43,450 bases of DNA from a virus. The first letter of the stretch is position 1. Every line of letters starts with the position of its first letter. The stretch is taken from the IMG/VR virus record IMGVR_UViG_3300020446_000020, positions 1 through 43,450 of that record. One strand, 5' to 3'. Shown here one piece after another: positions 5,361 to 31,078 of the stretch. The position numbers and the translations under genes are program-made. The notes under the pieces are model-generated. The model was not told where the DNA came from. It was given only the letters and a program-made list of their open reading frames with translations, and ran no database searches.

Positions 5361-6821
5361 ATGGACCTGTCACATTTGACAGAATCAGAGCTCAAAGAAG
5401 CTCTGCTGTTAGTAGAGAAACAACAAGGCTTCGCCGTTCAGGAGGAGTGTCAACAATCGTTTTTAAAATACATCAATCAGATGTGGCCCGAGTTTATCTG
5501 CGGTCGCCATCATCAAATCTTTGCCGAGAAACTTGAACAGGTTGCGCAAGGCAAACTTAATCGTTTGATTATCAACATGCCACCTCGTCATACCAAGTCT
5601 GAATTTGCGTCAACGTATTTTCCGTCTTGGATAATGGGCTTAAAACCTAAGATGAAGATAATGCAGACCACCCATACCGGCGAACTAGCAGTTAGGTTTG
5701 GTAGGAAAGTTAGAAACTTGATGGAGCAAAAAGAATATAAGCAAGTATTTCCAGATGTAAAGCTGCAAGCCGATAACAAATCAGCCGGTCGTTGGGAGAC
5801 TAATAAGGGGGGCGAATACTTTGCAGCGGGTGTTGGCGGAGCCGTAACCGGAAGGGGTGCGGATTTATTGATTATTGATGACCCGCATTCAGAACAAGAT
5901 GCGCTATCGCCGAATGCGTTGGAGAGTGCTTATGAATGGTACACCTCTGGCCCTCGTCAGCGTTTGCAACCCAAAGGTGCGATTGTCATTGTAATGACGC
6001 GTTGGTCTTCAATCGACTTGACCGCCAAATTACTTGAAGCGCAAAAAGAACCTTTGGCAGATCAATGGGAAGTAATAGAGTTTCCTGCTATTTTCCCCGA
6101 TACCGAAAAACCTTTATGGCCTGAGTTTTGGTCGCAAGATGAATTGTTAAAGGTTAAGGCTTCATTGCCTGGCATGAAATGGAATGCTCAGTGGATGCAA
6201 CAACCAACTGCTGAAGAGGGATCAATCATCAAACGTGAGTGGTGGCAAAGGTGGGAAAATGATTCTTTGCCCGGCGTAAAATATATTATGCAAAGTTACG
6301 ATACTGCGTTTTCTAAAAAGCAAACTGCGGACTATTCTGCGATTTCAACTTGGGGTGTATTTAAGCCAACCGAAGATTCACCCGACTGTATTATCTTATT
6401 GGATTCGCAAAAAGGTCGCTGGGACTTTCCAGAACTCAAAGAAATCGCGATGCGCGAATACCAATATTGGCAATCGGATATGGTTTTGATTGAAGCAAAA
6501 GCATCCGGAACTCCGTTGACGCATGAACTGCGGCGGATGGGAATACCGGTGGTTAATTATTCGCCAACGCGTGGCCATGATAAACATTCAAGAATGCACT
6601 CGGTTGCGCCGATATTTGAAGCCGGTATGGTTTGGGCACCCAATCGTATGTTTGCAGAAGATATGATTGAAGAATGTGCTGCATTTCCATTTGGAGCTAA
6701 TGACGATTTATGTGATACTATGACCCAAGCGTTAATGCGATTCCGCGAAGGTGGATTTGTTTACTTAGATAGCGATTACGAAGACGAAGAACGCGAACCA
6801 AGAAAGAGGGTTTATTACTAA
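5361..6821 (+). CDS. terL: Terminase large subunit (TerL)
   Basis: TerL is the ATP-driven motor and nuclease that cuts concatemeric DNA and packs it through the portal. This 486-residue protein shows the complete two-domain plan. The ATPase has a Walker A-like MPPRHTKS (73-80), a Walker B LLIIDDPH (169-176) and motif III VIVMTRWS (209-216). The RNase H-like nuclease has acidic residues in YDTAFS (Asp314), LIEAK (Glu378) and NDDLCD (448-453). Its length is normal for the family. It is joined to the portal gene at 6821 by a TAATG overlap. The INMPPRHTKSEF form of Walker A is typical of the psiM2/GTA-like TerL branch. The packaging mode cannot be told from the sequence. Confidence 0.95.
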   Translation: MDLSHLTESELKEALLLVEKQQGFAVQEECQQSFLKYINQMWPEFICGRHHQIFAEKLEQVAQGKLNRLIINMPPRHTKSEFASTYFPSWIMGLKPKMKIMQTTHTGELAVRFGRKVRNLMEQKEYKQVFPDVKLQADNKSAGRWETNKGGEYFAAGVGGAVTGRGADLLIIDDPHSEQDALSPNALESAYEWYTSGPRQRLQPKGAIVIVMTRWSSIDLTAKLLEAQKEPLADQWEVIEFPAIFPDTEKPLWPEFWSQDELLKVKASLPGMKWNAQWMQQPTAEEGSIIKREWWQRWENDSLPGVKYIMQSYDTAFSKKQTADYSAISTWGVFKPTEDSPDCIILLDSQKGRWDFPELKEIAMREYQYWQSDMVLIEAKASGTPLTHELRRMGIPVVNYSPTRGHDKHSRMHSVAPIFEAGMVWAPNRMFAEDMIEECAAFPFGANDDLCDTMTQALMRFREGGFVYLDSDYEDEEREPRKRVYY

Positions 6822-9316
6822 TGGCAATTGAAAGACAGGTACCCGATCCAGCGCAAACAGCTGAGCCCGTACAAGATTTAACAACCGAAAGATCAGCCGA
6901 TGATCTTGATGAACAAATTATTGAAGTTTTAGAAGGTCTAGACGAAGAAGGCATTCAAGTACAAGAGGACGGTTCTGTCATCTTGGGAGAGCCTGAAGTC
7001 GAAATGCCTGGACTAGGTTTTGGAGAAAACTTAGCCGAAGTCGTTTCTGAGAATGAACTTGACAAAATATATGTTGAGTTGATGTCTGCAATTGAAAACG
7101 ACAAGTCTGCTCGCGAAGACTGGGAGAAAACTTATACCGATGGATTGAAATACCTAGGTATGAAATTTGATGACGAAAGATCAGAGCCGTTTGAAGGAGC
7201 GAGTGGCGTGATCCATCCTTTGCTTGGAGAGAGTGTCACTCAATTCCAAGCGCAAGCTTATAAAGAATTATTGCCACCTCAAGGCCCTGTTAAAACTCAG
7301 GTCGTAGGTGAATACAATTCAGCGGTCGAAGAACAAGCGCAACGCGTAAAAGAATTTATGAATTATCAGATTACTCACGTTATGGAAGAGTATGACGAAG
7401 ATTTAGATCAAATGCTTTTTTATCTGCCCCTTGCAGGAAGTGCATTTAAGAAAGTTTATTATGATGAAAATCTAGGCAGAGCAGTTTCTAAGTTTGTAGC
7501 CCCAGAAGATTTAATCGTTCCTTACTACACTACAGATTTAGAAAACTGTCCTAGAATTACGCATCTAATTAAAATGCCTGAAAATGAAGTTAAAAAACTT
7601 CAAGCGATTGGTTTTTACAGAAACGTAAAAGTTGATACCGGCGATGATAGTACTGTTGATGCTGGATTAGAAAGCGAACAAGAAAAACTAGAAGGCATAA
7701 AACCATCATATGATACCGGTGAAGTATGCAATCTTTACGAGATTCATTGCAACTTAGACCTCGAAGGTTTTGAGGATACTGATGAAGACGGTGACTTTAC
7801 TGAAGTCAAACTGCCTTACATCGTAACTATTGATACCAATTCAGACAACATTCTTTCAATCAGAAGAAACTTTGCTGAAGACGATCCAATGAAAAACAAA
7901 ATTGAATATTTTGTTCACTTTAAATTTTTGCCTGGACTAGGTTTTTACGGATTCGGTTTAACGCATATGATTGGCGGCTTATCAAAAGCCTCAACTTCAA
8001 TTGTTAGACAATTGATTGATGCTGGAACTTTATCAAACTTACCCGCTGGTTTTAAAACTAGAGGTATTAGAATTAGAGATGAAGATTCTCCGATTCAACC
8101 GGGTGAGTTCAGAGATGTAGATGCTCCAGCAGGAAGTCTTAGAGATGCAATTCAACCGTTGCCGTTCAAAGAGCCAAGCGGAACCTTATTAAATTTATTA
8201 GGATTATTGGTTCAATCAGGACAACGTTTTGCTTCAATCGCTGAAATTAATGTAGGCGAAGGTAACGCTCAAGCTCCAGTTGGAACCACGTTAGCCTTAC
8301 TAGAAAGGTCAACCAAAGTTTTATCTGCGATTCATAAACGATTACATTCAGCACAGAAAAAAGAATTTGATTTGCTTGCAGATATTTTTGCTAAAAGTCT
8401 TCCAGATGTTTATCCGTATGCGATAGCTGGTGGAATGATGCAAGTCAAACAAGCTGACTTTGATGAAAGGGTGGATGTATTCCCTGTATCAAACCCAGAT
8501 ATTTTTTCAACCAGCCAAAGAATTGTAATGGCTCAAGAAATGATGCAGTTGGTTCAATCCAATCCGCAGATACATGGGCCTAACGGTGTGTATGAAGCTT
8601 ATCGAAGAATGTATGCTTCTTTGGGCGTGGATAATATTGACGCTTTATTGGTACCACCCCCTGATACAGAGCCTAAGCCTATTGAGGCTGGTTTTGAAAA
8701 CTCTGTATTACTAGCAGGTGGAGTAGCGCAAGCATTCCCAGAACAAGACCATGATGCTCATATAGCGGTTCATGTTAATTTATTAAACATGCAGCCGGTC
8801 CAAATGAATGCTCAGGTACAAGCTAACATCTATGCACACATTATGCAGCATTTGCAAATGAAGGCTGATATTATTGCGCAACAACAAATGCCGCCTGAAG
8901 CTTTACAACAGTATCAAGGTTTGTTGCAACAAAGCCAAGCGGTTAGCCCTGTTGAAGCTAGCCAGATGACTCAACAAGCAAATTCTATTTTGGCTCAGTT
9001 TAGTGCGCCGATTATGAACGAATTAATGATGCAGTTTTCTCAACAGGTAGCTGCTCCACCGCAAGAGGATCCTTTAGTATCTATTAGAAAACAAGAGCTA
9101 GCTCTAAAAGGTCAAGAGTTACAACAAGACAGAGAGCAGTTTGCAGTTAAAGAACAAATTAGAGCTGAAGAAAAAGCAAGACAAGATCAAATAGATCGAG
9201 AAAGAATTGACGCGCAACGAGATATCGCTAGAATGAGAGATGGTACTGCTCAAGATAGACTTGATCAGCAAAAAGAACTAAAATTAATCGACTTAGGATT
9301 AAACCAACTTAATTAA
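6821..9316 (+). CDS. Portal protein
   Basis: The portal is the dodecameric ring at the capsid vertex through which DNA enters and leaves. This 831-residue protein is long, in the range of P22-like portals. After an acidic N-terminus (1-70) comes the conserved region with GVIHPLLGESVTQFQAQAYK (about residues 128-147), the membrane-less alpha/beta core with YLPLAGSAFKKVYYD, and a GVAQAF... to Gln-rich helical C-terminus. Residues from about 750 to 815 are a charged coiled coil (rich in EQIRAEEKARQDQ-type heptads), as in the barrel of P22 gp1. The TerL-portal order is normal. Identification rests on these patterns and context, not on alignment. Confidence 0.88.
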   Translation: MAIERQVPDPAQTAEPVQDLTTERSADDLDEQIIEVLEGLDEEGIQVQEDGSVILGEPEVEMPGLGFGENLAEVVSENELDKIYVELMSAIENDKSAREDWEKTYTDGLKYLGMKFDDERSEPFEGASGVIHPLLGESVTQFQAQAYKELLPPQGPVKTQVVGEYNSAVEEQAQRVKEFMNYQITHVMEEYDEDLDQMLFYLPLAGSAFKKVYYDENLGRAVSKFVAPEDLIVPYYTTDLENCPRITHLIKMPENEVKKLQAIGFYRNVKVDTGDDSTVDAGLESEQEKLEGIKPSYDTGEVCNLYEIHCNLDLEGFEDTDEDGDFTEVKLPYIVTIDTNSDNILSIRRNFAEDDPMKNKIEYFVHFKFLPGLGFYGFGLTHMIGGLSKASTSIVRQLIDAGTLSNLPAGFKTRGIRIRDEDSPIQPGEFRDVDAPAGSLRDAIQPLPFKEPSGTLLNLLGLLVQSGQRFASIAEINVGEGNAQAPVGTTLALLERSTKVLSAIHKRLHSAQKKEFDLLADIFAKSLPDVYPYAIAGGMMQVKQADFDERVDVFPVSNPDIFSTSQRIVMAQEMMQLVQSNPQIHGPNGVYEAYRRMYASLGVDNIDALLVPPPDTEPKPIEAGFENSVLLAGGVAQAFPEQDHDAHIAVHVNLLNMQPVQMNAQVQANIYAHIMQHLQMKADIIAQQQMPPEALQQYQGLLQQSQAVSPVEASQMTQQANSILAQFSAPIMNELMMQFSQQVAAPPQEDPLVSIRKQELALKGQELQQDREQFAVKEQIRAEEKARQDQIDRERIDAQRDIARMRDGTAQDRLDQQKELKLIDLGLNQLN

Positions 9317-12227: not shown

Positions 12228-13136
12228 ATGGCAATTAATCGTTCACAATTAGCAAAGGAACTCGAGCCTGGTTTGAATGCCTTGTTTGGCATGGAATACG
12301 CTAGGTACGATAACGAACATGCAGAAATCTTTGATACTGAAACTTCAGATAGAGCTTTTGAAGAAGAGGTACTAATCGTTGGCTTTGGGAATGCCCAAAC
12401 TAAAGCTGAAGGATCTGGTGTTGCATTTGATAATGCAACTGAAGGATATACTTCAAGATACAGCCACGAAACAGTTGCTCTTGCTTTTGCTCTAACAGAA
12501 GAAGCTGTTGAAGACAATCTGTACGACAGACTTGGTTCAAGGTATACAAAAGCCTTGGCTAGATCTATGGCAAATACAAAGCAGATTAAAGCTGCTTCAG
12601 TATTAAATAACGCGTTTAGTAGCAGCCATACAGGCGGCGACGGTCAACCTCTTGTTTCTAGCTCTCACCCTCTCGGTGGCGGCGGAACTGCAAGTAACAG
12701 ACCATCAACTTATACTGACCTTAATGAAACTTCATTAGAAGATGCTCTTATTTCTATCTCAACTTTTACTGATGACAGAAATTTAGCAATTGCATTGCAA
12801 GGTACAAAGTTGATTGTTCCACCTCAGTTGCAATTTGTTGCTGACAGATTACTAGAAACTCCTGGAAGAGTTAGTACATCTGACAACGACATCAACGCTA
12901 TTAAGAATATGGGCATGGTTCCTGAAGGATACGTGGTTAACCACTATCTAACAGATACTGACGCTTGGTTCTTAAAAACTGATTGTCCTGACGGATTTAA
13001 ACATTTCCAAAGAAGCCCAATGCAAACTGCACTAGAAGGTGATTTTGATACTGGTAATATGAGATATAAAGCCAGAGAAAGATACAGCTTCGGATTCTCC
13101 AACTGGAGAGCAGTATTTGCATCTCAAGGTGCTTAA
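12228..13136 (+). CDS. Major capsid protein
   Basis: The 302-residue product forms the icosahedral shell, with an HK97-type fold. The N-terminus MAINRSQLAKELEPGLN and the central TEEAVEDNLYDRL and LARSMANTKQIKAASVLNNA match the pattern of Mu gpT-like and marine phage capsid proteins. P-domain-like helices precede a beta-rich A-domain region (LIVPPQLQFVADRLL) and a C-terminal RYKARERYSFGFSNWR. Length is normal. It is preceded by decoration and scaffold genes and followed by a strong terminator, as expected for a highly expressed gene. No prohead protease was found nearby. Confidence 0.88.
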   Translation: MAINRSQLAKELEPGLNALFGMEYARYDNEHAEIFDTETSDRAFEEEVLIVGFGNAQTKAEGSGVAFDNATEGYTSRYSHETVALAFALTEEAVEDNLYDRLGSRYTKALARSMANTKQIKAASVLNNAFSSSHTGGDGQPLVSSSHPLGGGGTASNRPSTYTDLNETSLEDALISISTFTDDRNLAIALQGTKLIVPPQLQFVADRLLETPGRVSTSDNDINAIKNMGMVPEGYVVNHYLTDTDAWFLKTDCPDGFKHFQRSPMQTALEGDFDTGNMRYKARERYSFGFSNWRAVFASQGA

Positions 13137-15103: not shown

Positions 15104-15344
15104 CGGTCGTCGTCTATATACTGACGAAAATCCAAAAGATACTGTTTCGATTAAATATGCAACTTTGCAAGACGCAAGAGATACAGTTGCTAAAGTAAAA
15201 AGAATTAGGAAGCCTTTTGCTAGAAAAATACAGATATTAACCGTAGGCGAGCAAAGGTCTAAATATGGGGGCAAACCTAGACAGGCAGAAATATTTAGAC
15301 GTGGCAAAGATGCAATTAGAAAAAAATTTGGTAGAATAAAGTAA
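15051..15344 (+). CDS. Basic phage protein with KKDPKKGTGKKPKGS start (97 aa)
   Basis: The 97-residue product starts MPRKKDPKKGTGKKPKGSG then RRLYTDENPKDTVSIKYA, a pattern I know from marine phage proteins without assigned function. The rest alternates strands and helices with clusters of Arg/Lys (KRIRKPFARK). It shares its start region with the upstream tiny gene in another frame. Likely nucleic-acid-binding by charge; no catalytic motif. Confidence 0.75.
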   Translation: MPRKKDPKKGTGKKPKGSGRRLYTDENPKDTVSIKYATLQDARDTVAKVKRIRKPFARKIQILTVGEQRSKYGGKPRQAEIFRRGKDAIRKKFGRIK

Positions 15345-15577
15345 TGGCTAAAAAAGTAAAAAGCGGCGGTAAAATTTGTCCAGCAGGAAAAGCTTGGGCA
15401 AAACGCACATTTGATACATACCCAAGTGCGTATGCAAATATGGCTGCTTCAAAATACTGTAAAGATCCTAATTACGCAAAAGGTTCTAAGAAAAAGAAAA
15501 AATCAGGCAAAAGAAGAAAGTTTGCGGGTGGTGGTGTAGCAAACGCCGGCTTCGGTGCTGTTAGGCAGTATAGGTAA
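15344..15577 (+). CDS. Basic protein with ICPAGKAWAKRTF / YPSAYAN signature (77 aa)
   Basis: The 77-residue protein begins at a TAATG overlap. It contains the signature GGKICPAGKAWAKRTF followed by YPSAYANMAASKYC (residues 8-38), which recurs in small proteins of many marine phages and, as I recall, in some large DNA viruses. It has two Cys in the signature, then a poly-Lys stretch and FAGGGV near the C-terminus, a variant of the recurring short motif. No function is known for the family. Its position, in a run of basic proteins, favours binding of nucleic acid. Confidence 0.72.
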   Translation: MAKKVKSGGKICPAGKAWAKRTFDTYPSAYANMAASKYCKDPNYAKGSKKKKKSGKRRKFAGGGVANAGFGAVRQYR

Positions 15578-15580
15578 TAT

Positions 15581-15907
15581 ATGGGCCAGTTAAAACAATG
15601 GAGAGAGCAAAAATGGGTTCGTATTGGAACCGATGGATCTATTAAAGGGCCATGCGGCACCAGCAAAAATAAAAAAAATCCAGATCGATGCTTACCTCTT
15701 GCAAAAGCCAAAAGCTTATCAAAAGCAGAACGTGCAAAAACCGCAAGAAAAAAGAAAGCAGCAGGCAGAAAAGGTAAAACCGTTGTTGCAAATACCAAAA
15801 AAGCAAAAGTAAGAGTTAAAAAATCAAAAGGCGATGTCGTGATTAAAATTGCCAAAGGATGTGGTAAAGTAATGAACGACAGGAGAAAGAAAACTAAATT
15901 TTATTAG
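15581..15907 (+). CDS. Basic protein with KWVRIGTDGSIKGPCG signature (108 aa)
   Basis: The 108-residue protein has an N-terminal signature QKWVRIGTDGSIKGPCGTSK then NPDRCLPLAKAKSLSKAERA (residues 10-51), known to me from small basic proteins of marine phages, often adjacent to the YPSAYAN type. Two Cys lie in the signature. The remainder is Lys/Arg-rich and probably disordered with a short beta segment near KVRVKKSKGDVVIKIAKG. Function unknown. Confidence 0.72.
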   Translation: MGQLKQWREQKWVRIGTDGSIKGPCGTSKNKKNPDRCLPLAKAKSLSKAERAKTARKKKAAGRKGKTVVANTKKAKVRVKKSKGDVVIKIAKGCGKVMNDRRKKTKFY

Positions 15908-15915
15908 GAAATAAT

Positions 15916-16143
15916 ATGTATAAGAAAACTAAAGGTTACTCTAAAGGCGGTAAAAAAGGCGGCGTAAAAAAAATGTCTAAAGGCGGTATGGCTAAAGGTT
16001 ATAAAGCTGGCGGTAAAGTTAAAGGATATAAAGCCGGTGGAAAAGTAAAAGGTTATAAAGCTGGCGGTAAAGTTAAAGGATACAAGGTCGGCGGAAAAGT
16101 AAAAGGAAATAAGAAAGGCGGCAAAAAGGGCGGAAAAAAGTAA
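15916..16143 (+). CDS. Lys/Gly tandem-repeat protein (75 aa)
   Basis: The 75-residue protein is almost all Lys, Gly and Tyr. Residues 27-62 are four tandem 9-residue units KGYKAGGKV (the last with V for A), flanked by KGG and KGYS blocks. Only Lys provides charge, so the protein is extremely basic and surely disordered. KGYKAGGKV belongs to the wider Y/F-x-x-G-G-x-V motif class found elsewhere in this phage. A role in DNA condensation, or as an adhesive linker, is a guess from composition. Confidence 0.72.
   Translation: MYKKTKGYSKGGKKGGVKKMSKGGMAKGYKAGGKVKGYKAGGKVKGYKAGGKVKGYKVGGKVKGNKKGGKKGGKK
15994..16101 (+). repeat. Four tandem 27-bp units in an A-B-A-B pattern
   Basis: Units at 15994-16020, 16021-16047, 16048-16074 and 16075-16101 encode KGYKAGGKV-type nonapeptides. 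Units 1 and 3 are identical base for base; units 2 and 4 share their own synonymous pattern. The true period is therefore 54 bp, meaning a dimer was duplicated. Confidence 0.9.
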
Positions 16144-16827: not shown

Positions 16828-16952
16828 TGGCTGATCTATCAGTTGCTCAAAAAAGAAAATTAATAAAAGAACTTAAAGGCGCTTCTAAGCTTCATGCAAA
16901 GCAAGCCGCTCAAATAGAAAGATCTTTAAAAAAAACTAAAAAGAAAAAATAA
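16827..16952 (+). CDS. Tiny basic protein, paralog of the 14957 product (41 aa)
   Basis: The 41-codon frame fits exactly between its neighbours, with TAATG overlaps at both ends (16825-16829 and 16950-16954), which strongly supports it. The product is one Lys-rich helix, with KELKGASKLHAKQ near residues 14-26 matching the 48-residue protein at 14957. Function unknown. Confidence 0.78.
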   Translation: MADLSVAQKRKLIKELKGASKLHAKQAAQIERSLKKTKKKK

Positions 16953-17623
16953 TGTCAGTTTCAGGCAGTACAGATTTTGAACCAAATGTAGCTGAGTTCG
17001 TCGAAGAAGCATTTGAAAGATGCGGACTTGAAATGCGTACTGGCTATGATTTAAAAACTGCAAAAAGATCTATAAATTTAATGTTAGCCGAGTGGGCTAA
17101 TCGTGGTCTAAATCAGTGGACTATTGAACAATCAACTACAACAGTTATTGAAGGAACAACTGATTATAATTTAAACGCTAATATTATTGATATTCTTGAT
17201 GTTGTTTGCAGAAGAACTGTTAGTGGAACTCAAACCGACATATCAATGGACAGGTTAAGTAGAAGTGAATATATAAATATTCCGAATAAAGATACAAAAG
17301 CAAGACCATCGCAATTCTTTTTTAACAAACAAAACAACCCTGTTTTACAAGTATGGCCAGCTCCTGAAAACTCAACCGATATTCTTGTTTATAACAAGTT
17401 AGTAAGAATGGATGACGCTGATAAAGCAACAAACACCATGGATATGCCTTTTAGGTTTTATCCTTGTTTTGCTGCCGGTCTTGCATACTATATTTCAGTA
17501 AAAAGAGCGCCTGAAAAAACAACTTTACTTAAACAGCTTTACGAAGAAGAGTTTAATAGAGCAATGTCGCAAGATGAAGATAGAGCATCTTTTAGAATTA
17601 GACCTTTTAGAAGTGTGGTTTAA
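16952..17623 (+). CDS. Head-tail connector, P22 gp4-like
   Basis: The 223-residue product has the pattern of the P22 gp4-type tail accessory or connector family. An early FVEEAFERCGLEMRTGYDL block is followed by KTAKRSINLMLAEWANRGLNQW (residues 35-56), a hallmark of that family. LSRSEYINIPNK (about 103-114) and the QVWPAPE strand come next, then MPFRFYPCFAAGLAYYIS in the C-terminal helical part. It would form the ring below the portal that closes the filled head and joins the tail. It abuts the next gene directly, in a connector/adaptor cassette. Family length is normal. Confidence 0.8.
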   Translation: MSVSGSTDFEPNVAEFVEEAFERCGLEMRTGYDLKTAKRSINLMLAEWANRGLNQWTIEQSTTTVIEGTTDYNLNANIIDILDVVCRRTVSGTQTDISMDRLSRSEYINIPNKDTKARPSQFFFNKQNNPVLQVWPAPENSTDILVYNKLVRMDDADKATNTMDMPFRFYPCFAAGLAYYISVKRAPEKTTLLKQLYEEEFNRAMSQDEDRASFRIRPFRSVV

Positions 17624-18346
17624 ATGGCTTACGCAAGTGGAAAATTTGCTGTAGGTTTATGCGATAAGTGTGGATTTAGATATAAGTTAAATTCTTTAAA
17701 AAAAGAATGGAATGGCTTAAAAACATGTAGATCTTGTTATGAACCAAAACACCCGCAATTAGACCCTCATACTGCTCCTGCAGATCCTCAAGCCATTTAT
17801 CAACCTAGACCAAATACTGATAAAGAGGTAGGAGAGGGATACGTGGTTGTTTTATATAACTCAATTACAAGTTCAAACTCTATGAATCCAAATATAATAG
17901 GATCAAACTTTTCTTTATCTAGGCTTGATGGGGAAGTTGGTAGCGTAACTGTTTCTGTAGACGGATCTGTAACTCCAACACCATCTCCAACTCCAGCACC
18001 AACTCCAAGCCCATCTGTTACAACTTATACAGTGACGGTAGCAAGTTATTATGGATCTAATTATTTTTATATTGATGGCTCAAGAGCTCCAACACTTAGT
18101 TTAACAGAAGGTCAAACTTATAAATTTGACCAGTCAGATAGCACTAATTCAAATCACCCCTTGAGATTTTCAACTACCGCAAATGGTACGCATGGTGGTG
18201 GAACAGAATACACCACTGGAGTTACTACCTCTGGCACTCCTGGAAGCTCAGGTGCATATACTCAGATAGAAGTTGCATCAGGAGCACCAACACTTTACTA
18301 TTACTGTACTAACCACTCGGGTATGGGTGGGCAAATTAATACATAA
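17624..18346 (+). CDS. Zinc-ribbon plus cupredoxin-like domain protein
   Basis: This 240-residue protein has three parts. Residues 10-45 form a zinc-ribbon-like knuckle with Cys13, Cys16, Cys35 and Cys38. After a short domain comes a Pro/Thr/Ser linker (about 117-131). Residues 133-240 look like a cupredoxin beta barrel: strand-rich, with EGQTYKFDQSD, NHPLRFS and the C-terminal YYYCTNHSGMGG. His178, Cys228, His231 and Met234 have the spacing and order of a type-1 copper site (His, then Cys-x2-His-x2-Met), as in plastocyanin and azurin. No signal peptide is present. It sits between the connector and adaptor genes and is likely a virion protein. Copper binding is inferred from the motif only. 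Confidence 0.75.
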   Translation: MAYASGKFAVGLCDKCGFRYKLNSLKKEWNGLKTCRSCYEPKHPQLDPHTAPADPQAIYQPRPNTDKEVGEGYVVVLYNSITSSNSMNPNIIGSNFSLSRLDGEVGSVTVSVDGSVTPTPSPTPAPTPSPSVTTYTVTVASYYGSNYFYIDGSRAPTLSLTEGQTYKFDQSDSTNSNHPLRFSTTANGTHGGGTEYTTGVTTSGTPGSSGAYTQIEVASGAPTLYYYCTNHSGMGGQINT

Positions 18347-18348
18347 AA

Positions 18349-19032
18349 ATGAGCAGTCCAATAACATTATCAGAACTTAAAACATTAATTCAGAACTATG
18401 TAGAGAATGATGAAACAACTTTTGTTAACACTCTTGATGACATAATTAAAAACACTGAAGAAAGAATTTTTGAACTAATTCAATTTGATTACTTTAGAAA
18501 AAATGTAAAAGGACTTTTATCAGCTGGATCTAGATTTCTAACAGCCCCAGATGATTTTGAATTATCTTTTTCTTTAGCTGTAATAAATACAAACGGAGAT
18601 TACAGTTTTTTAGATAAAAAGCATACAAGTTTTATGCAAGAATATTGTCCTGATCCAACCGATTCAGGTGAGAGAGCTTTACCACTTTATTACGGTGATT
18701 TTGATAAAGATTTGCATACTGGGTTAAAAGAATCAACAATTATTATAGCCCCAGTTCCCGACCAAAATTATGAAGTAGAGCTTCACTATTTATATAAACC
18801 AAATTCATTAGTTACAGATACTACTGGCACTTGGATATCCGAACATGCAAGAAACGCTTTACTTTATGGATGTTTAGTAGAGGCTTATACCTACATGAAA
18901 GGCGAGCCCGATTTATTAACATTGTATGAGAATAGATTTCAACAAGAGGTTGCAAGGCTAAAAAATAAAGCTGAGGCAAGAGGGAGAAGAGATGAATATA
19001 GATATGATTCATTAAGAACACAAGTCACTTAA
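18349..19032 (+). CDS. Head-tail adaptor-like virion protein (227 aa)
   Basis: The 227-residue product starts two bases after the previous stop. It contains ITLSELKTLIQNYVENDE at the N-terminus and a Phe/Tyr-rich alpha/beta body with RFLTAPDDFE, ending in a helix LYGCLVEAYTYMKGEP and a basic, Arg-rich coiled tail. This order of N-terminal helix, beta body and C-terminal helical bundle resembles adaptor proteins that sit near the connector in podovirus-like marine phages. Function is inferred from place and pattern. Confidence 0.62.
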   Translation: MSSPITLSELKTLIQNYVENDETTFVNTLDDIIKNTEERIFELIQFDYFRKNVKGLLSAGSRFLTAPDDFELSFSLAVINTNGDYSFLDKKHTSFMQEYCPDPTDSGERALPLYYGDFDKDLHTGLKESTIIIAPVPDQNYEVELHYLYKPNSLVTDTTGTWISEHARNALLYGCLVEAYTYMKGEPDLLTLYENRFQQEVARLKNKAEARGRRDEYRYDSLRTQVT

Positions 19033-19051: not shown

Positions 19052-19795
19052 ATGAAGAGAATCAAGAAACTTGAAGGTAAAACTGTAGCTATTGTCGGTA
19101 TGGGCAAAAGCTGGTTTGATTACAATTTAGCAAAATCACATGGATCACACTTTGATGAAGTATGGGCTATTAATTCAGTAGCATCCGTTATTTATCACGA
19201 CAGAGTTTTTATGCTTGATCCACCATCAAGGTTTTTAGACACCGATGATGCTGGAGGGCAAACCGAAAGCATGTCAAAACTCCTTCAAGAGCATCAAGGG
19301 CCAATATATACATGTGAATTAGATGATAGATGTCCTGGATTAGTGGAATATCCCGTGCAAGAAGTATTATCAGCCACTGGATGTCATTATTTAAACAATA
19401 CAGTTTCTTTTGCAGTTGCTTTCGCAGTTTGGAATAAAGTTGGAAAAATAAAATTATTTGGTATTGATTTTAGTTATAGAGGCAATCTTCATTTTGCTGA
19501 GGCTGGAAGGGCTTCAGTAGAGTTTTGGTTGGGAAAAGCCATGCACTTAGGAATACAGGTTGAAGTAGCGTCAAGTAGCGGTCTTCTTGATACTGATGTT
19601 CCTGCAGATGAAAAACTTTACGGTTATCATAGATTGGCTGATCCTCTTGTTGTCATAACTAATGAGAAAGGCGAGTTGATAGCAAGAAAAAAAAGTGAGG
19701 TAATTCAATACAAACAAGAAAAAGATCCTGTTTTGATTGACAAACATGACAGTCATTTGGAAAAAAATAAACCAGGAGATCCGAAAGTATGGTAA
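19052..19795 (+). CDS. Rossmann-type protein, MptE/DUF115-like
   Basis: The 247-residue product has a strong ribosome site, AAAAGGAGAAG. Its N-terminus, TVAIVGMGKSWFDYN (residues 10-24), is a nucleotide- or sugar-binding Rossmann start. The centre has LNNTVSFAVAFAVWNKVGKIKLFGIDFSY (central His/Asp-rich region), and then HFAEAGRASVEFWLGKAMHL. The last two resemble the MptE-like (DUF115) family, which includes 6-hydroxymethylpterin diphosphokinase and flagellin/LPS glycosyl-transfer proteins. I cannot tell the reaction. An enzyme inside a virion operon is unusual; it may modify a virion protein or glycan. The C-terminal 45 residues are Lys-rich and unlike the family. Confidence 0.6.
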   Translation: MKRIKKLEGKTVAIVGMGKSWFDYNLAKSHGSHFDEVWAINSVASVIYHDRVFMLDPPSRFLDTDDAGGQTESMSKLLQEHQGPIYTCELDDRCPGLVEYPVQEVLSATGCHYLNNTVSFAVAFAVWNKVGKIKLFGIDFSYRGNLHFAEAGRASVEFWLGKAMHLGIQVEVASSSGLLDTDVPADEKLYGYHRLADPLVVITNEKGELIARKKSEVIQYKQEKDPVLIDKHDSHLEKNKPGDPKVW

Positions 19796-29428: not shown

Positions 29429-31078
29429 ATGCTAAACGAAATACAAAAACAAGACTTACAAGGGATTGCTGCTTTGGGGAGAAATGAAGATACTATTCTT
29501 GCACACGTTGCGCCAGATGAAATGGTCATTCCTGCAGAAGTTTTACGTAACGATCCATTTTTAAACACTTATATTTACAATTCTATTTCCAAGTATGGGG
29601 TTGATCCAAATCAATTTATAGTTGGAAGTGGCGATATGGATTTGAACCCACTTACGGGTTTACCTGAGTTTGGATTTTTATCTAAAGTATTCAAAAAAAT
29701 CAAAAAAGTTGTTAAAAAAGTTGCTCCTGTAGCAGTAAACTTTATACCTGGCGTTGGGCCTGTAGCAAAAGCAGCCCTTACAGCAGCAGCTGGTAAGGCT
29801 TCTGGCTTATCAACAAGAGACGCTCTATTAGCGGGAGCTACATCTTTTGCTGGTAATAAAATGTTTGGTGGGGTAAGTCCAACAGGCGGATCAGCAACAA
29901 CGAGCAATATATTTCAAAGAGCAAAAGAATACATTTTACCTGGTCAAGATAAAGTTGGTTTATTTGGCAATATTAGAAAAGGCATCGGTAGTTTTTTTGG
30001 CGGGGATACTACTGTTGTTCAACAAGGAGATACTTTATCAAGTATTGCTGCAAAAGAAGGAACAACCGTTGCAGAATTATTAAAAGCCAATCCTCAAATA
30101 ACCAATCCTAATTTAATACAAGCAGGAGCTACTATTAACTTGCCTGGAGGAGGCGTTTTATCAAAAATTGGTGGTGGCTTACGGGGAATAGGAGAAGGTA
30201 TTGGCGGATTGATGCCAAGCACTGACGGTCAAAGTCGAATTGGAATGATCGAAGATATGATTAAAGGTAGACCATCTGATCCCGTCAGAGAAGGCGGAGG
30301 ATTTTTAGGTGGAATGATGGGCGGCGGTCAACAGCAAGGCGGCGGCGGATTCTTGCAATCTTTAGGTGGAGCGATGACAAGCCCAGCAGGTCTTGCAGGC
30401 TTGTACGGATTAGCAACTTATTTAGGCGCTAAAGAAAGAGAAGGTGGATTAGCAGAAACTCCAGCAGTAACAATGGATTCTTTAGGAAGGTATCAGCTTT
30501 CTAAAACTTTAGGTACAGGCGGAACTAGAGAAGAGTTTGGTTTGGGTCCGGCACCTAAAGCACTTAAATTTGCGCAAGGAAATGTAGTGCCATCATCTAG
30601 TGAAATAAATTTAGTAATTGACGCTCTTGATGGAACAATACCTCAATATGAAAATGAGAAAATAATTCAAGATTTTATTAAAAAATATGGAATCGATATG
30701 TTTCAACAAATTAGCAGCAATGTAAGCTCAAGAACTTTTTATGACAACAATAATGATTTTTACAAAGAGGGAAGAGCTATAAACCCATCAAATGTTGTTA
30801 GGCCAGGATTTAATACTGGCGGCGCTGTAATGATGGAAGAGTTAGATATGCGTCAAGGCGGAGAATCTATTGGTCCAGGAACTGGAACTTCCGATGATAT
30901 TCCAGCGATGTTAAGTGACGGCGAGTTTGTAATGACTGCTAAAGCGACACGCGGAGCAGGCGCATACGAAACCAAAAAAACTCCAAAAGGAATTGAGCTA
31001 ATTCAAAGCGGAGATCCTTCAAGAGAAGCAGGCGTAGAAAATATGCGCGAGCTAATGAAAATGTTTGAGGCAGTATAA
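29429..31078 (+). CDS. LysM-containing virion protein (549 aa)
   Basis: The 549-residue product contains a peptidoglycan-binding LysM domain (about residues 196-238), with VVQQGDTLSSIAAKEG and INLPGGG. A cationic, amphipathic Val/Lys/Ala stretch lies at 84-125, with GPVAKAALTAAAGKASG. Two ends look alike: HVAPDEMVIPAEVL at 26-39 and AMLSDGEFVMTAKATRG near 500. It also carries FNTGGAV and FAQGNVV motifs. It lies before the Gln-rich and giant ejection-type genes, so it may help the tail cross the cell wall. Inferred as virion-associated peptidoglycan-contacting protein. Confidence 0.72.
   Translation: MLNEIQKQDLQGIAALGRNEDTILAHVAPDEMVIPAEVLRNDPFLNTYIYNSISKYGVDPNQFIVGSGDMDLNPLTGLPEFGFLSKVFKKIKKVVKKVAPVAVNFIPGVGPVAKAALTAAAGKASGLSTRDALLAGATSFAGNKMFGGVSPTGGSATTSNIFQRAKEYILPGQDKVGLFGNIRKGIGSFFGGDTTVVQQGDTLSSIAAKEGTTVAELLKANPQITNPNLIQAGATINLPGGGVLSKIGGGLRGIGEGIGGLMPSTDGQSRIGMIEDMIKGRPSDPVREGGGFLGGMMGGGQQQGGGGFLQSLGGAMTSPAGLAGLYGLATYLGAKEREGGLAETPAVTMDSLGRYQLSKTLGTGGTREEFGLGPAPKALKFAQGNVVPSSSEINLVIDALDGTIPQYENEKIIQDFIKKYGIDMFQQISSNVSSRTFYDNNNDFYKEGRAINPSNVVRPGFNTGGAVMMEELDMRQGGESIGPGTGTSDDIPAMLSDGEFVMTAKATRGAGAYETKKTPKGIELIQSGDPSREAGVENMRELMKMFEAV

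Follow-up and report, generated by a model that had tools for sequence, protein, structure and literature searches.

Our analysis of the 43,450-base stretch of DNA referred to here as the window (a single IMG/VR virus record) reveals that a small protein encoded among the neck genes of a phage carries a C-terminal domain with the predicted fold and the conserved ligand set of a type-1 copper protein. The first-pass annotation, made from the sequence alone, had proposed a blue-copper-type domain on a protein of the virion operon, and the predicted fold, the ligand topology, the ligand conservation, a profile alignment and the gene context all support that proposal. In particular, we put at about even the chance that the domain is a displayed, optional and mobile cupredoxin with an intact type-1 ligand set, tethered to an anchor in the neck and serving as an accessory module for binding the host surface.

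The protein comprises an N-terminal anchor domain, a variable linker and the cupredoxin domain (Table 1). Its ORF starts at the base right after the stop codon of the upstream gene, and the next gene begins three bases downstream. As the first-pass annotation had described, the N-terminus contains a four-Cys motif, consisting of the two C-x2-C pairs of a zinc ribbon (C13, C16, C35, and C38), and is joined by a Pro-rich linker. The ribbon cysteines are retained in most close relatives and are less firmly kept across the family, where alignments show one to all four of them gone (loci L042, L052, L426, L427, and L084), unlike the family-wide conservation expected of a zinc ribbon. The anchor domain occurs alone, with no cupredoxin, in DSL-LC04.

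Table 1. Features of the cupredoxin-bearing ORF and of head and neck genes in the window.
Feature	Position	Strand	Basis or remark
ORF, ribbon anchor + linker + cupredoxin domain	17624..18346	+	240 aa; full-length IMG/VR relatives 51-85% identical
N-terminal anchor domain, residues 1-70, four-Cys ribbon	17624..17833	+	phrog_28581 match; alignments
Variable linker, residues 71-132	17834..18019	+	pLDDT mostly <50; least conserved part; dN/dS higher than in cupredoxin domain
Pro-rich stretch TPTPSPTPAPTPSPS, residues 117-131, inside linker	17972-18016	+	sequence
Cupredoxin domain, residues 133-240	18020..18343	+	AlphaFold2 model; solved-structure matches; hhalign to cupredoxins
His178, putative first His ligand	18155..18157	+	just before model strand 52-55; hhalign; conservation
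Cys228, putative thiolate ligand	18305..18307	+	last residue of model strand 96-100; hhalign; conservation
His231, putative second His ligand	18314..18316	+	loop preceding last strand; hhalign; conservation
Met234, putative axial ligand; a few copies have His or Leu	18323..18325	+	model; hhalign; conservation
Adaptor 1	16952..17623	+	Pfam SU10_adaptor
Adaptor 2	18349..19032	+	Pfam SU10_adaptor
Terminase	5361-6821		
Portal	6821-9316		
Major head protein	12228-13136		

Both genes flanking the ORF match the Pfam family SU10_adaptor (PF24175; E-values of 9.6e-14 and 3.8e-18), confirming the placement beside the head-tail connector that had been claimed for it. In phage SU10, the adaptor ring connects the portal with the nozzle and provides a dock for the long tail fibres (PMC9509320). 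Both neighbours belong to the SU10-type adaptors, and adaptors of relatives carry the cupredoxin domain, whereas the protein of ORF 17624-18346 is itself no adaptor. The position of the gene and the annotation of its relatives suggest that the protein is incorporated into virions. A promoter search gave no evidence for a promoter near the ORF (3 found versus 8.6 expected), and a search of the window for tRNAs found none. Three other parts of the window drew our attention: a group of three short ORFs, Lys-rich and very basic, lying between head and adaptor genes (15344-16143; one with KGYKAGGKV repeats), which perhaps encode DNA-condensing or internal proteins; a 247-aa protein with a Rossmann-like start (TVAIVGMGKSW) directly after adaptor 2 (19052-19795), which has no Pfam or PHROG match and is odd in a virion gene cluster; and a 549-aa protein (29429-31078) in which a LysM domain is clearly recognised (E-value of 4.2e-12) and which likely contacts the cell wall.

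An AlphaFold2 model of the domain, computed from an alignment of 79 domain copies, has a mean pLDDT of 96.6 over 112 residues (model residue i corresponds to protein residue 128+i); in a model of the full-length protein, the cupredoxin domain is confidently predicted, the ribbon moderately so, and the linker is disordered. The predicted domain is a Greek-key beta-sandwich of the cupredoxin superfamily. All 50 of the solved structures among the matches listed for the model are cupredoxin-fold copper proteins: the top match is the N-terminal domain of Hyphomicrobium nitrite reductase (Z-score of 9.4; 2.5 Å over 96 residues), and further matches include rusticyanin (Z-score of 8.5) and laccases (Z-scores of about 8). 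A Foldseek search with the same model returned copper proteins as its best 13 matches, at modest E-values (best 1.4e-3). The model also resembles a giant-virus beta-sandwich protein (BFVD A0A481Z6J5, Pithovirus LCPAC302; TM-score of 0.72, 25% identity).

The secondary structure assigned to the model by DSSP has the topology of a type-1 site, with a His before a strand, a Cys ending the penultimate strand, and a His and a Met in the next loop. Specifically, H178, C228, H231, and M234, found at the positions given by the first-pass annotation, are predicted to lie where the topology of a type-1 copper site places its ligands; the structure prediction suggested there as a check yields the fold and, by topology, the ligand positions. 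Copper would be the metal expected from such a ligand set. The loop from C228 through H231 to M234 has the spacing C-x2-H-x2-M, the same as in amicyanin (CTPHPFM). The residue following His178 is Pro, which we count against type-1 identity because small blue copper proteins usually carry Asn after the ligand His; laccases also have His-Pro. The phage domain is thus like amicyanin, plastocyanin, rusticyanin, and the N-terminal domain of Hyphomicrobium nitrite reductase in predicted fold and in the order and topology of His, Cys, His, and Met, and differs from them in having no Pfam match above cut-off, in the Pro after the His, and in being carried on phage structural proteins.

Conventional searches did not connect the protein with known cupredoxins. 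The 240-aa protein matched no Pfam or NCBIfam family; the curated cut-off of the Copper-bind family (PF00127) was not reached, with no match for the protein itself and weak matches for 5 of 79 relatives (best E-value of 0.016); and phmmer and profile searches of PDB sequences gave chance matches only. The phage domain was also aligned by hhalign to a reference profile built from Pfam-detected cupredoxins of cyanobacterial and archaeal genomes. The unconstrained alignment scored 38 and brought all four ligands into register; the highest score among 150 column shuffles was 19.6, and the reversed profile scored 20.9. With the four ligand columns masked, the score was 20, which is the background level, indicating that the sequence evidence for common descent resides mainly in the ligand site. 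We therefore dropped the view that descent from plastocyanin is proven by profile similarity alone; the fold, as predicted, lends support to cupredoxin identity that is independent of ligand-site sequence. The ligand loop reads CTNHSGM in the window and CTNHASM in a cupredoxin of a marine archaeal genome.

We gathered 445 copies of the domain, 384 of them readable at the ligand columns. All four ligands are present in 49 of 56 clusters at 70% identity and in 165 of 174 clusters at 90% identity, which answers the check on conservation in homologs that the first-pass annotation had set. Among 99 alignment columns (56 clusters, 70% identity), the four ligands rank second to fifth in conservation, behind the single column F168; by our own arithmetic, four named columns would fall within the top five of 99 with a probability of about 1e-6. 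In the five clusters in which the site has decayed, C228 and H231 are lost jointly in every case and never singly (YAT-, HNTM, EGTL, HSNM, and DATM). Given these counts, we reject a chance spacing of His, Cys, His, and Met in a low-complexity protein, and the linked loss is what should be seen for a metal site that is under selection or has been released from it. The invariant residues of the alignment gather in the loops surrounding the metal site.

Comparison of the window with seven relatives gave dN/dS values of 0.01-0.10 for the cupredoxin domain, 0.11-0.23 for the anchor, and 0.18-0.71 for the linker, values that are rough because synonymous sites are near saturation. The cupredoxin domain has the lowest value of the three parts in every comparison, and thus appears to be under strong purifying selection and to be the most constrained part of the protein.

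The pattern of conservation bears directly on the possibility that the domain is only a stable spacer or display fold, Ig-like in its use, with ligands retained because they pack the fold or bind a structural metal, whether copper or another. The fold does resemble other beta-sandwich display modules, and some members that have lost ligands are still recognisable as copies of it (PSS2 gp080, one P-SSM7 copy, and loci L170, L183, and L189). However, packing does not predict four ligands among the five most conserved columns, nor the exclusively joint loss of C228 and H231, and a packing role is disfavoured for that reason; we regard the spacer reading as rather unlikely. The suggestion of the first-pass annotation that the fold might be used only structurally, one of three functions that it offered beside redox sensing and the binding of a host metal protein, fares no better, since the ligands are kept as a set in copies only 43-60% identical and are lost jointly. 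The PSS2 gp080 copy (locus L088, 3992-4330) is a stand-alone domain lacking three of the four ligands, and provides a natural ligand-free control.

Relatives of the anchor were counted from a search in which the ribbon domain was the sole query, which keeps the cupredoxin from influencing the outcome. Of the best 80 relatives, 63 lack the cupredoxin and 17 have it. The anchors lacking it, among those listed, stop at about 111-116 residues, and the 17 that bear it keep the gene order adaptor 1, anchor, adaptor 2. Since most anchor relatives do without the cupredoxin, we conclude that the domain is dispensable for assembly, and we rule out that it is an integral part of the connector.

The domain also occurs elsewhere in the neck, as judged from a census based on fragments and on searches seeded with this cupredoxin family. 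In particular, three loci (L009, L017, and L076) have a second copy inserted in the middle of adaptor 2; phage 023Pt_psg01 has the cupredoxin fused to the N-terminus of adaptor 1 and has an anchor protein with none; and two loci (L056 and L205) have two cupredoxin domains in tandem. In a tree of the copies, those inserted in adaptors nest among anchor-borne copies with a support of 0.90. Part of the anchor-borne copies, in turn, branch among those collected by the tail-fibre search, at nodes that are in places less well supported. The nesting, together with the neck locations, indicates that the domain has been transferred from gene to gene within one neck, and the sequences suggest that it has probably moved between neck genes and fibre genes as well. 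Another kind of insert, marked by GTFxxGETITGGTSGATxT-like repeats, is present in adaptor 2 of three loci (L071, L078, and L080) and in adaptor 1 of another (L073), indicating that the adaptors accept several kinds of extra domain.

The domain is found in marine phages of several host groups. A tblastn search with the domain matched 292 of 50,697 phage records, all with marine hosts or sources, at a limit of E 10 at which the weakest matches are to be judged by the coherence of the list and not by their E-values. The matching phages are those of Synechococcus, Prochlorococcus, Pelagibacter, and Methylophilales, and uncultured phages from seawater; the products at the matches listed are tail fibre, baseplate wedge, virion structural, and hypothetical proteins; and the domain is also present in tail fibres of pelagiphages and in baseplate and tail proteins of cyanophages. 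Most genomes searched have one copy. Four to six matches each were obtained for P-HM1, P-SSM2, P-SSM7, and ACG-2014j, where one domain may split into two matches. A search of plasmids with the domain gave no match, and among 121 genomes of the Prochlorococcus family the domain was found in 2, in large proteins (L423, Prochlorococcus, a 2543-aa frame; L425, a 621-aa frame). These two copies possibly reflect exchange between phage and host. The capture of a host gene by one phage was rejected as the origin of the domain, given 2 of 121 such genomes against hundreds of phage loci, and no plasmid match. In some large phage proteins, cupredoxin-like domains flank or follow a subtilase domain (Peptidase_S8; L085, which is P-HM1 gene PHM1_104, and L333, 824-4231), and cupredoxin-bearing loci similar to these are present in many marine contigs.

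That the domain is optional, moves between neck genes, and is common to many marine phages, none of which the first-pass annotation had seen, points to a displayed accessory module and not to a part of the connector. It occurs on the anchor, adaptor 1, adaptor 2, tail fibres, and baseplate proteins, a set of unrelated virion carriers. The closest parallel is provided by the Ig-like domains that phages carry on structural proteins such as T4 Hoc, which are modular and, in the account of Fraser 2006 as cited in PMC10385173, are thought to give weak adhesion. Both are optional beta-sandwich modules that sit on exposed virion proteins and move between unrelated hosts; the cupredoxin-type fold differs in having a conserved set of metal ligands and in its location on neck and tail proteins of marine phages. 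The domain is most likely a binding module displayed at the surface, retaining a metal site and used as phage Ig-like domains are.

We propose that the flexible linker tethers the cupredoxin to the anchor protein of the neck, in the portal-adaptor region, and that phages add the module to, or insert it in, any exposed protein available in the neck, tail fibre, or baseplate. The module would work on the exterior of the particle, where, as an accessory domain for binding, it would help to keep the virion attached to its marine host's surface. Copper would be taken up at the Cys-His-His-Met site, and the conserved loops around it would form the functional face, the metal end being taken as the working face because the invariant residues gather there. 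The cytoplasm, in which virions assemble, is poor in free copper, and for that reason loading presumably follows release of the virion. Of these steps, the loading of the site with copper is probable in our judgement, and adhesion by the domain is a tentative proposal to which we give slightly less than an even chance.

A stronger proposal would make the bound copper itself the means of finding or holding the host, with a dedicated, horizontally shared copper module on marine phage particles, common to phages of cyanobacteria, Pelagibacter, and methylotrophs, as the counterpart of the proposed iron Trojan Horse; this we consider unlikely. A copper lure, following the Ferrojan or Trojan Horse idea proposed for iron on tail fibres, is a little more doubtful still; here the domain, once loaded with copper, would dock on a surface protein of the host whose normal task is to handle copper or a copper protein. 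The restriction of all 292 matching records to marine phages and the position of the most conserved loops around the metal site are consistent with such docking, as is the precedent of iron-binding HxH motifs proposed for tail fibres (T4 gp37 and those of the marine Alteromonas phage R22Y; PMC11705849). There, as here, metal ligands are placed on phage host-recognition proteins, and importance in metal-poor seawater has been proposed; those sites, however, are octahedral iron sites in trimeric fibres, whereas here the site is predicted to be a mononuclear copper-type site in a globular domain. Against docking, no host receptor is known, the carriers infect cyanobacteria, Pelagibacter, and Methylophilales, hosts to which a copper receptor need not be common, and a position in the neck suits contact with a receptor less than does the tip of a fibre.

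A redox or electron-transfer device would detect oxidation, either upon release or on the surface of the host, through its copper or its Cys thiolate and so set off a change in the neck. In its favour, the type-1 ligand set is that of electron-transfer proteins. However, no redox partner protein was seen among the neighbour genes examined, and the domain is optional, flexibly tethered, and present on unrelated proteins, indicating that it is not coupled to one machine; we consider such a device very unlikely. Buffering of copper by many copies, protecting virions or infected cells from toxicity, is the least probable reading of all: several copies per genome occur in the cyanophages with multiple matches, but most genomes have one, the copy here is on a low-copy neck protein, and sequestration would favour a capsid protein or a free protein.

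The preferred reading, an accessory binding module that retains a metal site, concerns a known fold and a site of a known kind. The virion-borne family of such domains across marine phages appears to be undescribed; no description of it was found in the literature searched, which covered few subscription journals and preprints, and an earlier mention is possible. The identity of the domain allows the label 'hypothetical protein' to be replaced in many marine phage genome annotations, and the domain itself, about 110 residues long, defined, and expressible, would be a test object for the role of such accessory domains. Even with no copper bound, a mobile cupredoxin-type module that hops among genes for neck, fibre, and baseplate proteins would give phages a second widespread display fold beside the Ig-like one. 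Should the site be loaded, certain abundant phages of the ocean would bear copper proteins on their surface, their adsorption would be linked to trace-metal chemistry, and viruses would join the list of copper ligands in seawater. Marine phage particles may carry surface copper for a reason not described so far.
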